From Myxococcota bacterium (GTDB taxonomy: Bacteria > Myxococcota > Kuafuiibacteriia > Kuafuiibacteriales > Kuafuiibacteriaceae): DNA of 64,000 nt. The notes below the pieces were generated by a model. That model saw nothing but the letters and a program-made list of their open reading frames with translations. It did not search any database and was not told the origin of the DNA. The stretch spans positions 1-64,000 of the forward strand of contig JANQQN010000259.1 of NCBI GenBank assembly GCA_028289325.1. The letters run 5' to 3'. Positions 41,072 to 47,238 of the stretch are shown here, piece after piece. How positions within the stretch are numbered: position 1 is the stretch's first letter; every line of letters starts with the position of its first letter. The translations under genes were made by a program, and so were the position numbers.

Positions 41072-42616
41072 CTACCATCGAATGGCCGACGGCGGGAGCG
41101 GCGATCGGGTTCGAAAGATGGTCCACGGCCCGTAGGTGACGGTCGCTTCGTGGATCGGGCTCGGCAGGCGCGGATGGTCGCCATGTACCACGAGATAGTC
41201 GTACATTCGGCCATGGGATCGGGGATCGAAACCGTCCCAGCTAGGATTGTACGGCGTGCCCGAGCGATTGCTTCGATGGACCGGCATCTCCTCCGGCACG
41301 TTCCCTACCGGTACGTACGCCGCGCCATCGACGAGGTGATAGAAGCCGAGCGTGTCTTGAGGCCGGGGCGCGCGGGACAACGGAAGGATGCGATGACCGG
41401 GAGGGACCGCGGCCCGCACGTCGTCGTACGCCCTGACCTGCTCGCTGTACTTCGCCACGACGGCGGCGTTCACCGCCGCGTTGTGCGCGACGACCGCCAC
41501 CGACGCGGTGGCCAGTATCGCCCCGCTGCGGCTGTGCAGCGCGGTCCGCGGCATCATCAGCCAGAACAGCGCGGCGACCGTCCCCGCGCGCTGGTAGACG
41601 ACCCAAAACGTCACCGGCCACCCGATCCACACCGGGCCCAGCAGAAAGATTGCGGAGGCCGTCGCCGCGTACACCATGAGCCCGTCGCCGGCCCCGGATG
41701 GTCGCGGCGCCGCGTGTCGACCCCACCACCGCACGGCGACCGAGACCGAGACCCCCCACAGCAAGGCGCCGATCATCGTCCATTCGTGGCCATCGCCGCC
41801 GCGATCGAGCATATCGCCGGCGAACGTCCGGAGGTGATCCTCGACCGACGCCCAGCCCGCGGGGGCCGGCCCTCCGGGTCGGACGAACTCCGGGGATACG
41901 TATCGTCGTTCGATGCGGCGCAGGATGGCGGGCATCCCTAGCGTCAGAACGACGATGCCTCCGGCTGCGAAGGCGAACCCCACCGGCGACCACGAGCGCG
42001 GGGGGCGCGAAAGGTGTTGAACGCATCGGGCGCCGATGAGCAGCGCCGCGAATACGAACACCAACCCGTGGCCGAGAAAGCACAACGCCAAAAAGATGGT
42101 CAGCCGCCCCGCGCTCGACCATCGCCGAGCGGGATCGGCCATCAAACGCTCGGTCTCCGCCAGCGCATGCAACAACCAGGGCAGGCCCGTGACGAACGAT
42201 GCGAAACCTAGCCCGAGCGAAACACCGAACATCATCAGCGCCGCGAGACCCGACAGTCGCGGGCTGCGTCCGGTGGCTTGCGCCAGACGGGCAGCGCCGG
42301 TGACGGCCACGACGGTCGCGATGACCAGATTGAGTTTGGCCGCGACCTCGATAGGTATGATTCGCCCGAGCAGCGCGGTACAAACGTAGAACGTGAAGTA
42401 GGGCGTCGGCGCAAAGCTGCGGACCAGATACGCGTCGGCGCCGGTTTCGTGGCCCATCGCGAGGACCGCCGACAGTCCGACGTGGCCGGCCCAGTCTTGG
42501 TAAGGCAGATACCGCCCTGCGAAGAGGACCACGGCCATCGCCGTCGCCCCCACGAGGACGAATAGACCGACGATGGGGTCCCGGTGCCACGACGGCGGTC
42601 GCACGGGCTCGGTCAA
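41072..42616 (-). CDS. Multi-TM integral membrane protein (glycosyltransferase-like topology), TTG/GTG start
   Basis: Hydrophobic helices; TTG at 42616 overlaps the upstream gene's stop (TTGA); ORF-track version to 43156 runs out of frame through the upstream gene. Confidence 0.7.
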   Translation of the reverse strand: MTEPVRPPSWHRDPIVGLFVLVGATAMAVVLFAGRYLPYQDWAGHVGLSAVLAMGHETGADAYLVRSFAPTPYFTFYVCTALLGRIIPIEVAAKLNLVIATVVAVTGAARLAQATGRSPRLSGLAALMMFGVSLGLGFASFVTGLPWLLHALAETERLMADPARRWSSAGRLTIFLALCFLGHGLVFVFAALLIGARCVQHLSRPPRSWSPVGFAFAAGGIVVLTLGMPAILRRIERRYVSPEFVRPGGPAPAGWASVEDHLRTFAGDMLDRGGDGHEWTMIGALLWGVSVSVAVRWWGRHAAPRPSGAGDGLMVYAATASAIFLLGPVWIGWPVTFWVVYQRAGTVAALFWLMMPRTALHSRSGAILATASVAVVAHNAAVNAAVVAKYSEQVRAYDDVRAAVPPGHRILPLSRAPRPQDTLGFYHLVDGAAYVPVGNVPEEMPVHRSNRSGTPYNPSWDGFDPRSHGRMYDYLVVHGDHPRLPSPIHEATVTYGPWTIFRTRSPLPPSAIRW

Positions 42617-43146
42617 GGGTTCGGAGTCTCGAAGCGGCCGGCCTTCACCGCCGACGCGACCGACTGAAACATCGAATTGGGAATGGGCAGGCTCAGGCTG
42701 TACTGCGCGACGCGCCATCCTCCGTCCCGATACACCAAAACCCCGGTGCCCCGGCAACGTCCGTACTTCTCGCTGGTCACCACCTCGTCGAACCACGCTG
42801 TATCGCCGTCGGCGGCCACGGTGATCGTTCGGTCTGAAGGGCGATAGGCCCAGCCCCGCCCATTGTCGAAGTGGGGCTTGGCGTAGGCACGAAACGCCTC
42901 CAGGGACCATCGTTCCCCGGGATCCGTGCCGAGAAACACGGCGTTGGGGGCGAACTGTGCGAAATAGGTCGCCTCGTCGGCCCGGGCGGCCGCAGCGTGC
43001 AAGGTATCGAGAACCTGTTCGATCTGCGGCCGGGCCGCGCTCGGGTCGATCCTGGCCCCGGCCCCCTTCGACGCCACGCATCCGGGGCCACTGGCGGCGA
43101 CCAGGAGCCCGGCGGTGATGAGGGCAGTGAAAGTCCGACTCGGCAT
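42613..43146 (-). CDS. Secreted/lipoprotein SnoaL-like (NTF2-fold, DUF4440-like) protein
   Basis: LVAASGPGC lipobox; VLDTLHAAAARADEATYFAQFAPNAVFLGTDPGERWSLEAFRAYAKPHF. Confidence 0.8.
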   Translation of the reverse strand: MPSRTFTALITAGLLVAASGPGCVASKGAGARIDPSAARPQIEQVLDTLHAAAARADEATYFAQFAPNAVFLGTDPGERWSLEAFRAYAKPHFDNGRGWAYRPSDRTITVAADGDTAWFDEVVTSEKYGRCRGTGVLVYRDGGWRVAQYSLSLPIPNSMFQSVASAVKAGRFETPNP

Positions 43147-43262
43147 GCGAGAACACTGAACACGTAGTCAGTCAAAATCAAGTACCTGCTCCGTCACGCT
43201 TGGCCCGTCTGGCGCCTAGACGAAACACCAGCGGCCAACCCAGCGGCCGCGAGAGGAGCGAC

Positions 43263-43394
43263 ATGATGAAGTTGATTCGATGGGTTCTGTTGAGCAGTGT
43301 TCTAGGAATGTCCGCTTTGGCTTACGCCGGCACGACCGCCAGCTGCGAGTGCCCGAGTTGCGAGTGCGACCGGTCGTGCGACTGCGGGCGCTGA
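43263..43394 (+). CDS. 43-aa exported Cys-rich micro-protein with three CxC motifs
   Basis: MMKLIRWVLLSSVLGMSALAYAGTTASCECPSCECDRSCDCGR; RBS GAGAGG upstream. Confidence 0.65.
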   Translation: MMKLIRWVLLSSVLGMSALAYAGTTASCECPSCECDRSCDCGR

Positions 43395-43398
43395 AGCG

Positions 43399-43914
43399 TT
43401 GACGCCGTCCGAGCGGCAACAGCTGCGGGCGCAGCTCATTCGATTGAAGAGCGGTGACCGCGCCGCCTTCACCCCCGTGTATGACGCGCTCAGCCCCGTC
43501 TTGATCGGGTTCGCGCGGCGACTGGTGGGGCCCGAGGAGGCGGAAGATGCCGCACAGCAGGCGTTGATCAAGCTATTTGGGCAGGCGAGCGCCTACGACG
43601 AAACGAAAGACGTCGCGGCGTGGGCGCTCAGTCTCACCGCGTGGGAGTGCCGGACGATCCGGACCCGTGCGCGGCGACGAAGAGAGGTTCCGATAGACGA
43701 CGAGATCGATACACAGGCTTTCGATCCGACGTCCGCGCTCCTCGAGCGCAAGGTGTTGCAGGAGGCCGAAGCGGTGCTGCAGACCTTGAGCGAGCGGGAT
43801 CAAGAAGTTTTGCGCAGCGCCTTCGCCGACGAAGGCCGAGGCGCGACCTTCCGCAAGCGCAAGCAGCGAGCGCTGGCTCGACTGCTCGCGGCCTGGAGGA
43901 CGAACCATGGATAA
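43399..43914 (+). CDS. ECF-type RNA polymerase sigma factor-like protein
   Basis: SGDRAAFTPVYDALSPVLIGFARRLVGPEEAEDAAQQALIKLFGQASAYD region 2; SERDQEVLRSAF...TFRKRKQRALARL region 4-like. Confidence 0.8.
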   Translation: MTPSERQQLRAQLIRLKSGDRAAFTPVYDALSPVLIGFARRLVGPEEAEDAAQQALIKLFGQASAYDETKDVAAWALSLTAWECRTIRTRARRRREVPIDDEIDTQAFDPTSALLERKVLQEAEAVLQTLSERDQEVLRSAFADEGRGATFRKRKQRALARLLAAWRTNHG

Positions 43915-44443
43915 CGCGCGAAGAGCGGCCCGCTGGGCCTACGAGAAGGGGCGGATCGCCGACGCCGTGGTGCGGGCAGGGGCGAGCGTGCCCGTAGCGT
44001 TGGCCCTGTATCTCACCGGGGCCACCGCCGGCCTCGCCGCGCAGAGCGCAGTCGCCATGTTCGGCTTTGTCGCCGTGGGCGGCTGGTGGCGAACCGACCT
44101 CGGCCGGGGTGCGGTCGCGGGCGCGGCCACGGTCATGATTCCGATGCTGCTCAGCGTGTATATGGAGACGCTGGGGTGCGCGATGTCGCCGACCGAGTGC
44201 GCGACGTTCTGCCTGTACGGCTCTGCGACCCTGGGCTGCGTGGCCGGATACCTCCTCGGACAAGCGGCGGCCTTACGCAGTCGCAAGGACGGATTCTGGT
44301 TCCTGGGCGCCACGGTCACCACCGCGACCCTCGCGGTTACCGTCGGCTGTGGGATCTTGGGTTTCGGGAGCACCTTCGGCCTCGCCATCGGTCTGCTGCT
44401 CGTCGGCGTGCCCACCTTCGCTTGGGTGCGAGCGACGAGCTGA
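43907..44443 (+). CDS. Hypothetical multi-TM protein overlapping the sigma factor gene
   Basis: Several hydrophobic segments; 8-nt overlap with sigma gene. Confidence 0.7.
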   Translation: MDNARRAARWAYEKGRIADAVVRAGASVPVALALYLTGATAGLAAQSAVAMFGFVAVGGWWRTDLGRGAVAGAATVMIPMLLSVYMETLGCAMSPTECATFCLYGSATLGCVAGYLLGQAAALRSRKDGFWFLGATVTTATLAVTVGCGILGFGSTFGLAIGLLLVGVPTFAWVRATS

Positions 44444-44775: not shown

Positions 44776-47238
44776 TCACAGATCGAGGACAACGTTGGTG
44801 CGGGGGCGGGCCACGCAAATGAGGGCGTAACCGTCGTCGGGCGGCTGGACGGGGTCTTCGTCGTAGGTCACCGAGCCCTCCACCACCCGGCACGCACAGG
44901 TCTGACAGACGCCCGAACGACAGCTGAATGGCGGGCTCAGACCTTCCGCCTCCGCGAGCTCGAGTAACGACCCGGCGTCCCAGGTCGCCTCGAGGTCCGC
45001 GCGGGCGAACCGGACCGGGAGGCCCCCGCCCGACGACGTATCGATGGCCGGCTTCGCGGCGTCGACGAGAGGGCTCGAGGGCCCGAAGAACTCGTAGTGC
45101 ATCCGAGACCCGTCGATACCGAGGTCGACGAGCCCTCCATACACGTCGCGCATGAAGGGGGGAGGGCCCACCAGGTAGAAGTCATAACTGTCGAAGGGAA
45201 GAATCGATTTGATCAGGGCGACATTCACCCGTCCTACGCTGTCGTGGGTCACGCCGAGCTGGTCGCCGGCCTCCGGCGCGCTGTACCGCACATGAACATT
45301 GACGTTGGAATGCTCGGCGGCGAGGCGGCGGACATGATCGCCGAACGCGTGTTCGCGGCCGTTTCGCGCACCATGGATGAACCACACCGGGCGCGACGAG
45401 CCGGCAAGACGGTTCAGCATGCTGATCATCGGCGTGAGTCCGACCCCCGCGCTCAGCAGAACGACCCCGCGGGTCGGATGTTCGGTGAGCGAAAATCGCC
45501 CTCGCGGAGTGAGAACCGCGAGCCGGTCGCCGACACGTATCCGGTCGTGAAAGTATGTAGAGGCGACCCCCGGCGGCGACACCCCGTCAAAAGACGCCTC
45601 TCGCTTGATGCTCAACCGATAGTACGAGGCGCCGGGCCGGTCGGATAACGAGTACGTACGGACGACCGTTCCGTCGGGCCCCGGCACGTAAACGGTCAAG
45701 AACTGGCCGGGTCGAAACTCGGGCAGGGGCACATCACCGGTAGGCTCCAGGTAGAAGGAAGTAATGACGTCGCTCTCGCGCACGATTTTGCTGACCTCTA
45801 CTTCTCGCAGACCCTTCGACGCGGTTTTGGCGTTGCGAAGCCGCTCTTCGAACGATTCCTTCCAACCGTGACTGAGGGCCGCGATGGACAACGCGCGTCG
45901 GGTTCCGGCGAGATCGGAAGTGCTAAAGTAAAGCAGATCGTTCACCGCGCGCACGCTCATGCCGTTCGGGTCGCGGCCGAGGAGCTCGAACCGGTCTCCT
46001 GCGCCGACCTCGCCTTGCTGCCGAACCCGAAGGTAAAAGCCGACGCGTCCGCTGCGACGGAAGCGGTCCTGAAAGCCGTCGATGCCCATCTTGAGCGCGA
46101 GCTTGAAGCAGGGAACCCGAGGCTGCGAGACCTCGACCACCGCCGTCCCCAGCCGATAGACATCGCCGACAAAGACCTCGTTGTCGCTCATTCCGCTTAC
46201 GGTCAGGTTCTCGCCGAACTGGCCGGGCGAAAGGTCGTCGCGACCCAGCGCCTCCTGCCAGTAGAAGTAATGGTCGTTTGAATAGACATAGACGGCGCGA
46301 AAAGCGCCACCATGGCCCCACAGATCCGCTTGACCGTCAGCGTCGAAGTTCAGCCAGCGAAGCCGGGCCTGGGACGGGACCGGACGCTTGAAGATCCCGG
46401 TGGACACCGTCTGACCGTCTCGCGTCGTCTCTCGCGGCAAGGATACGTTGACCGACAGGATCTCTCCTCCGACGGGGGGGGATGCAGCGACGAGGCTCGC
46501 CGGCGCCACAAAATCGGAGTGCGCCCCCACCCGATCGAAACGAGGACCGAATCCGTCCAGCTGGCTCGCCCGGTTGACGGTCAGCGAAAGCACCGCCCTC
46601 GCGCCGAAGAAGCGGCTGACGTGATGGGAGTCGACGAGGCGGGTGGCCGCGCCTTCGAAACCAACCGCGACCCCTTCCCGAAGGTTGAGTCCGATCCCCG
46701 TCACTGGCCACTCGGCCGAATCCTCCGCTTCGCTTCGGTCGACGAGCAAGACGTTGGTTTCGTGAGCGACCAGCGCCGTGCCGCTGAAGGTCACCGAGAG
46801 TACGAGCTCGCCGGCCACCGCACGAACGACCACGAACAGGTCGGCGTCGGCGAGCAGGGCACCTTGCGCCCGGTCGAGCGCGGTTGTGATTCGATGCGCC
46901 GGTTCAGAAGCGTCCGAGCGAAACGCCCAGCGATCGTTCGCTGTCGATACGCGGACATCGTCGCTCGTCACGTCGAGCTGAGGTCCGTCGGAACCGGTCT
47001 CCGTATAGCGGCCGGCGACGCGCAACAGGGTCCCGGTCTGCGGCACGAACCCGATCGCGACGCCGGCGGTTCCTTCCTGGATCTCGGCGCCGCGGGCAAG
47101 AACGGCACGAAGGCCGTTCGATACCGTCGACTCGAACGCGGCAACCGCAGACAGCTGCGGTCGACCTCCCGCGCCCACCCAGCCGAGAAGGCGAAACGGT
47201 GCTTCCGCGATACGACTTACGTTGTCCGCCGAGATCAT
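44776..47238 (-). CDS. PNPOx-like / MOSC / ferredoxin-NADP reductase-type / 2Fe-2S ferredoxin fusion oxidoreductase
   Basis: MOSC: LWGHGGAFRAVYVYSNDHYFYWQEALGRDDLSPGQFGENLTVSG; FNR: RTYSLSDRPG, LLSAGVGLTPMISML; 2Fe-2S: PFSCRSGVCQTCACRVVEG. Confidence 0.9.
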   Translation of the reverse strand: MISADNVSRIAEAPFRLLGWVGAGGRPQLSAVAAFESTVSNGLRAVLARGAEIQEGTAGVAIGFVPQTGTLLRVAGRYTETGSDGPQLDVTSDDVRVSTANDRWAFRSDASEPAHRITTALDRAQGALLADADLFVVVRAVAGELVLSVTFSGTALVAHETNVLLVDRSEAEDSAEWPVTGIGLNLREGVAVGFEGAATRLVDSHHVSRFFGARAVLSLTVNRASQLDGFGPRFDRVGAHSDFVAPASLVAASPPVGGEILSVNVSLPRETTRDGQTVSTGIFKRPVPSQARLRWLNFDADGQADLWGHGGAFRAVYVYSNDHYFYWQEALGRDDLSPGQFGENLTVSGMSDNEVFVGDVYRLGTAVVEVSQPRVPCFKLALKMGIDGFQDRFRRSGRVGFYLRVRQQGEVGAGDRFELLGRDPNGMSVRAVNDLLYFSTSDLAGTRRALSIAALSHGWKESFEERLRNAKTASKGLREVEVSKIVRESDVITSFYLEPTGDVPLPEFRPGQFLTVYVPGPDGTVVRTYSLSDRPGASYYRLSIKREASFDGVSPPGVASTYFHDRIRVGDRLAVLTPRGRFSLTEHPTRGVVLLSAGVGLTPMISMLNRLAGSSRPVWFIHGARNGREHAFGDHVRRLAAEHSNVNVHVRYSAPEAGDQLGVTHDSVGRVNVALIKSILPFDSYDFYLVGPPPFMRDVYGGLVDLGIDGSRMHYEFFGPSSPLVDAAKPAIDTSSGGGLPVRFARADLEATWDAGSLLELAEAEGLSPPFSCRSGVCQTCACRVVEGSVTYDEDPVQPPDDGYALICVARPRTNVVLDL

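Follow-up and report, generated by a model that had tools for sequence, protein, structure and literature searches.

The whole 64,000-nucleotide stretch of Myxococcota DNA analysed here, hereafter called the window, carries what is probably a self-regulated metal-stress operon, in which a secreted peptide chelator is produced together with a membrane anti-sigma factor and a sigma factor that activates its own transcription. We would put the probability of this reading at roughly two in three. The peptide most likely serves as a secreted metal trap that is made in place of an efflux pump. If this is right, the copper defences of bacteria would include a peptide chelator that is secreted, apparently unmodified and exchangeable with efflux pumps. 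Judged by sequence comparison, the operon occurs in many myxobacteria and relatives.

The features of the operon are as follows.

43193..43218, + strand: predicted self-regulated promoter, a conserved motif found at 42 of 46 loci
43254..43258, + strand: ribosome-binding site AGGAG of the micro-ORF, read directly in the sequence
43263..43394, + strand: ORF for an exported Cys-rich micro-protein, 43 amino acids by translation, six cysteines arranged as three CxC motifs
43263-43328, + strand: signal peptide of the micro-protein, predicted Sec type, ending in AYA before a G
43329-43391, + strand: mature peptide GTTASCECPSCECDRSCDCGR, 21 amino acids, three CxC motifs
43399..43914, + strand: ECF sigma factor, 171 amino acids, TTG start, helix-turn-helix of region 4 incomplete
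43907..44443, + strand: six-helix membrane protein, 178 amino acids, cysteines at 98, 102 and 148

An exported cysteine-rich micro-protein

Translation of the micro-ORF (43263-43394, + strand) yields MMKLIRWVLLSSVLGMSALAYAGTTASCECPSCECDRSCDCGR, and thereby bears out the original prediction of a 43-residue product with a signal peptide and three CxC motifs. The predicted gap of four nucleotides to the sigma gene is likewise exact, as evident by the TTG start codon at 43399. Export of the micro-protein would proceed by the Sec pathway. Clustered CxC motifs are typical of thiolate metal sites, and the mature peptide may bind metal.

The micro-protein matched no Pfam family above cut-off, and its sole NCBIfam match is weak, sub-threshold and located over the signal peptide; no known metallothionein profile in either collection was matched. 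A search for second copies in the same genome returned two weak matches (E 0.15 and 1.9), neither of which is credible; the one that was read (L002) is a frame within another gene. Similarity searches of 97 relatives also gave nothing convincing, so the corresponding peptides of relatives are identified by position and character rather than by sequence. Across loci these peptides carry from 3 to 26 cysteines, and their other residues are not conserved. Between close relatives, the pN/pS ratio of the micro-ORF is about 0.14-0.6, with synonymous changes outnumbering amino-acid changes, which indicates that the micro-ORF is under purifying selection.

Conservation across Myxococcota

Sigma homologues were examined in the same 97 relatives, and a search with a profile of the membrane protein, which covered 195 genomes of the phylum, gave matches in 52. 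Screening of 84,980 genomes contributed at least nine further Myxococcota loci, two of which repeat genomes already covered, and a tblastn search of plasmids with P0002 gave no match. Removal of duplicates, of one truncated locus and of one locus lacking a sigma match left 46 loci for analysis. Genes in the relatives were called by a simple script, with flanks mostly of 1.5-6 kb.

With one fixed criterion for short, exported Cys-rich ORFs, 23 of the 46 sigma homologues were found to have such an ORF just upstream, compared with none of 206 other genes of the same loci and 7 of 1840 random positions. One of these 23 passes (L176) proved to be a frame inside a MerT-like gene, which leaves 22 short micro-ORFs, and a locus whose ORF is too long for the criterion (L165) supplies the 23rd exported Cys-rich ORF. 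A lack of conservation of the micro-ORF upstream of orthologous sigma genes had been fixed beforehand as the result that would refute the original prediction, and the ORF is in fact conserved (23/46 versus 0/206). The order peptide, sigma factor, membrane protein recurs in highly diverged genomes, with sigma identity as low as 28% and the micro-ORF located 4-60 nucleotides 5′ of the sigma gene; examples are the peptides of Sorangium So0157-2 (MRRWLKVTLFAAVLGIPAMAYAGTQLAGGCPCADCPCPDCPCG) and Polyangium sp. 6x1 (MKTIRNTFVRAVTVLSLMAMPVGALADAGPCPCGTSCPCGAGCPCGH). The loci are phylogenetically clustered. Mapped onto the sigma tree, the peptide trait needs six changes compared with a mean of 15.5 for shuffled labels, which indicates that the trait is old and was lost or gained a few times, and that the counts given here are not independent.

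Some loci depart from the usual form. In L165, the place of the micro-protein is taken by a 186-residue exported protein with 26 cysteines and EGKC repeats, encoded 583 nucleotides upstream of the sigma gene. The MerT-like product of L176 (assigned by eye; no Pfam match) is a small membrane protein of 89 residues with a Cys-rich tail, encoded at the usual position of the micro-ORF. One genome (G004) holds both forms of the system, with a sigma gene accompanied by a peptide (L174) and another beside a P-type ATPase gene without a peptide (L173).

The position of a short ORF directly 5′ of the sigma gene, and nearly touching it, would also suit a leader peptide that regulates the sigma gene through its own translation (for example of its Cys codons), with a product of no importance in itself. 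We consider this very unlikely, because pN/pS is below 1 and a signal peptide with an AxA-like site is kept across members. Moreover, the spacing between the micro-ORF and the sigma gene ranges from an overlap to about 60 nucleotides, and the large 26-cysteine protein of L165 sits in the same place.

A conserved promoter upstream of the operon

The motif GTCAC-N15/16-GCC[T/C]A is present upstream of the operon at 42 of the 46 loci, compared with 11 of 9200 shuffled upstream regions, and precedes the micro-ORF at loci that have one. In the window, the -35 element GTCAC(G) occupies 43193-43198 and the -10 element GCCTA occupies 43214-43218, with a spacer of 16 nucleotides between GTCAC and GCCTA. 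The promoter ends 44 nucleotides 5′ of the start codon of the micro-ORF, so that the operon begins with this ORF; the original prediction did not include this promoter. The GTCAC and GCC[T/C]A letters are fixed by the search pattern itself; beyond them, 36 of the 42 loci have G and the other 6 have A directly after GTCAC, and C is the favoured base at the next position (31/42). For the form GTCACG-N14/15-SGCCTA, the window holds this single match (43193-43218) where 0.05 are expected. Since the motif is common to the promoters of diverged loci, it is most likely the sequence that the sigma factor recognises.

When the whole genome of the window was searched, five matches were obtained, the same number as in a backwards control, so the operon itself is the only credible target at this chance level. 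Three of the other four matches fall in or beside unrelated frames, two of which resemble formylglycine/sulfatase-modifying proteins by eye, and the fourth (L182) precedes an unidentified frame. If the promoter has been read correctly, it provides a handle for reading the regulon off genomes. The intergenic region that carries the promoter is shared with a divergent gene (42613-43146, - strand) for a protein of the SnoaL_3 family that may carry a lipoprotein signal.

An ECF sigma factor with a reduced region 4

Both alignment and structural modelling indicate that the protein encoded at 43399..43914 is an ECF sigma factor with a reduced, non-canonical region 4. Region 2 matches the Pfam family Sigma70_r2 (PF04542) above cut-off (7.6e-9), and the protein also matches the NCBIfam model TIGR02937 (sigma70-ECF). 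For region 4, PF04545 covers only positions 1-23 of 50 and stays below cut-off. The distance from the conserved Leu130 to an R-K-R motif is 22-27 residues in the 46 homologues versus 33 in three ordinary ECF sigma factors, such that about 6-11 residues are missing; these correspond to the helix just ahead of the recognition helix. An AlphaFold2 model (pLDDT 87.6, region 2 confident) has three region-4 helices where the family usually has four, and its region 2 superposes on that of SigC in the PDB (rmsd 1.0) and on SigmaE region 2. The shortening of region 4 that was originally suspected is thus real by the partial Pfam match, the alignment and the model alike. The C-terminus (...AWRTNHG) follows directly after region 4 with no Cys-rich tail, and the single cysteine of the protein lies within W-E-C-R-T. 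This architecture poses the structural question of how the unusual -35 element GTCAC is recognised by a sigma factor whose region 4 is incomplete.

A membrane protein as putative anti-sigma factor

The sigma gene and the gene for the membrane protein overlap by eight nucleotides, as had been noted in less detail in the original prediction, and this overlap suggests that the two are translationally coupled. The membrane-protein gene lies directly 3′ of the sigma gene in all 46 loci analysed. AlphaFold2 predicts six long helices (residues 2-36, 41-61, 63-88, 101-123, 126-151 and 153-177; pLDDT 75, pTM 0.56). Cys 98 and Cys 102, located before helix 4, and Cys 148, at the end of helix 5, are each conserved in 41 of the 46 loci, and cysteines at positions 93 and 106 occur in 39 of 46 and are absent from the protein of the window.

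The membrane protein belongs to no known family in Pfam, NCBIfam or the PDB, and a Foldseek search of the PDB yielded no significant match. Its layout, with six membrane helices and cysteines in these two places, is nevertheless that of NrsF, and by this analogy we infer that it may act as a metal-sensing anti-sigma factor that works like NrsF. Common descent with NrsF is unsupported by HMMER and hhalign for the NrsF sequences used. The NrsF profile (PF06532) matched none of 14 members of the membrane-protein family and returned no match in a search of the window's genome, and hhalign gave probabilities of 0.2-0.9% when the NrsF side was represented by 14 divergent Myxococcota sequences, several of which fall below the curated cut-off. 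If our reading is true, the membrane protein would be a metal-sensing anti-sigma factor of a new type.

The original prediction left open whether the exported peptide captures metal or senses it. Its tight linkage to the sigma factor and membrane protein, its placement inside a self-activated operon, and a size too small to hold much metal would all fit a signalling part rather than a sink. The apo or metal-loaded peptide would then contact the membrane protein from outside and set sigma activity, either as feedback or by presenting metal. However, roughly half of the loci do without a peptide altogether, the cysteines of the membrane protein are kept whether or not a peptide is present, and the non-cysteine sequence of the peptide is not conserved, unlike that of a receptor-binding partner. 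These facts make a signalling role unlikely, though less so than the other alternatives considered here. The membrane protein is the better candidate for the sensor, given its conserved cysteines and its co-occurrence with the sigma factor with or without the peptide. Metal capture is the best reading of the peptide itself, because the micro-ORF is conserved behind the promoter of the sigma factor and because, in sister lineages, the sigma-membrane pair is flanked by Cu/Ag genes and CusC-type efflux genes follow the same promoter.

Two further arrangements of such proteins were observed. Second copies of the membrane protein that lack a sigma gene of their own are present in three cases (L139/L214, L147/L216 and L169/L217); each has its own GTCAC promoter about 8 nucleotides before the start codon, and these copies adjoin Cus genes or are fused to them. 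In L227-L228 (Myxococcota), NrsF-like six-helix domains are fused behind a zinc-finger-like anti-sigma segment, beside ordinary ECF sigma factors.

Linkage to metal-resistance genes

In a clade without peptides, CusC/TolC-type genes (L144, L149, L151 and L215) carry the same promoter 7 nucleotides before the start codon, which implies leaderless transcripts. Another genome (G134) contains five copies of the promoter within 15 kb around the sigma gene, in a copper island that also carries CusA-, CusB- and multicopper-oxidase-like genes, and one of these copies lies 10 nucleotides before a CusC-type gene. Pfam searches of genes neighbouring the sigma-membrane pair identified CusB with a heavy-metal-binding domain, CusA-type RND proteins, cupredoxins, and a P-type ATPase with YHS and HMBD domains. 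Such metal genes are present in the fetched flanks of 12 of the 23 peptide-less loci, and the linkage extends beyond the Cus clade to other families, as evident by the P-type ATPase genes of L163 and L173.

By contrast, most peptide-bearing loci have no adjacent copper gene within the fetched flanks, and a distant RND gene is all that one of them (L158) offers. Peptide-bearing loci generally lack pump genes, which suggests that peptide and pump replace one another, although the relatedness of the loci limits this comparison. No copper gene is tied to the sigma factor by the promoter motif in the organism of the window. The identity of the metal is suggested by the peptide-less relatives, whose gene content makes Cu(I) probably the likeliest ion. 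At the Polyangium sp. 6x1 locus (L078), positions -2485 to -419 relative to the sigma gene hold what appears by eye to be an arsenic-type operon, divergent from the sigma operon, with ACR3-like pump, ArsC-like and ArsR-like genes.

The linkage of the same sigma factor and promoter to Cus efflux, cupredoxin, HMBD/YHS and P-type ATPase genes also bears on whether a metal is the signal at all. Thiol or oxidative stress could be sensed instead, with the peptide acting as an exported redox buffer, but both this linkage and the clustering of CxC motifs count against such a system, and we regard it as improbable. In its favour are the conservation of cysteine alone among the peptide residues, and a Brucella ECF sigma/anti-sigma pair with a DUF1109-type partner that answers hypochlorous acid (PMC8315932).

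Proposed mechanism

In the metal-stress reading that we favour, the six-helix membrane protein would hold the sigma factor off RNA polymerase at rest. The signal would be a thiophilic metal ion in the periplasm (Cu(I) is the best candidate, with Ag(I) or a similar ion as a less likely one), which the membrane protein would sense via its conserved cysteines and answer by releasing the sigma factor. Once free, the sigma factor is expected to act at GTCAC-N15/16-GCC[T/C]A and to drive transcription of its own operon. The first product would be the micro-protein, which, after Sec export and trimming to the 21-residue, six-cysteine peptide, may chelate the metal outside the cytoplasm in the manner of a secreted miniature metallothionein. 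In sister lineages without a peptide gene, the same promoter would drive Cus-type pumps, such that peptide and pump could be alternative outputs of one regulator.

Our literature searches found no description of this promoter, of an ECF sigma factor with such a partner, or of an exported metallothionein-like peptide under sigma control; a numbered ECF group may exist for these sigma factors. We see an evenly balanced case for a larger proposal, namely that these loci form an undescribed metal-responsive ECF family of Myxococcota. Such a family would combine a sigma factor that has a trimmed helix-turn-helix and keeps a strict GTCAC -35 element, a new six-helix, cysteine-based, metal-gated anti-sigma factor, and an unmodified exported mini-metallothionein that is evolutionarily interchangeable with Cus pumps.

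Comparison with known systems

The system is a relative in kind of ECF metal-stress systems such as sigmaF-NrsF or CorE, and differs from each. Bacterial metallothioneins, which resemble the peptide in being short and Cys-rich, are cytoplasmic as a rule. NrsF of Caulobacter crescentus (PF06532/DUF1109) has six transmembrane segments with C131 and C181 and is a proven negative regulator of the heavy-metal ECF factor sigmaF, whose regulon includes small predicted membrane or exported proteins of the DUF2282 type (PMC3511200). Both systems place an ECF sigma factor before a membrane protein of six helices, in which conserved cysteines occupy two positions about 50 residues apart, and the heavy-metal response of the Caulobacter system is probably shared by the present one. 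However, the membrane proteins have no detectable homology, the peptide of the window is unrelated to DUF2282, and no MNIO partner is present in the genome. The sigma factor of the window also has an incomplete helix-turn-helix in region 4, and its operon has a conserved GTCAC promoter of its own.

Within the same phylum, CorE and CorE2 of Myxococcus xanthus (formerly ECF44, now ECF238) are metal-dependent ECF sigma factors that control copper efflux genes (PMC3107203, PMC8999054), and thus share the link to copper efflux. In CorE, metal is sensed by a Cys-rich domain at the C-terminus of the sigma factor itself together with a CxC motif in the linker, and no anti-sigma factor is known, whereas the sigma factor of the window has neither that domain nor the linker CxC and is coupled to a membrane protein. 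The copper-responsive ECF factor SigAb of Acinetobacter is encoded in an operon with overlapping genes for membrane and periplasmic anti-sigma proteins, and its direct regulon is very small and includes itself (mBio 2025, PMC12153292). In that system, unlike the one described here, AabA is a transmembrane protein of 107 residues and AabB is its periplasmic partner, and neither a Cys-rich exported peptide nor a six-helix membrane protein has been described.

Bufferins are likewise short, Cys-rich and Sec-exported, and require modification by an MNIO enzyme. Precursors that bear a signal peptide and are rich in cysteine, under the control of an ECF sigma factor and NrsF, are typical of bufferins (PMC3511200, PMC12452194), and MNIO genes occur in 12 of the 14 genomes that we tested. 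That the micro-protein is a bufferin-like RiPP precursor is nonetheless the least probable alternative of all, because the genome of the window (92% complete and 5.9% contaminated by tool estimate) has no MNIO gene (PF05114), which leaves the link unsupported there. No MNIO gene was seen in the annotated flanks, and the ten MNIO loci examined lack the GTCAC promoter and mostly have a different Cys-rich precursor of their own. The peptide of the window also has no EGKCG motif and matches neither DUF2282 nor any other Pfam family above cut-off.

Elsewhere in the window, a gene at 44776-47238 (- strand) encodes an 820-residue protein in which a MOSC-type domain, a flavin reductase and a plant-type 2Fe-2S ferredoxin can be discerned by eye.
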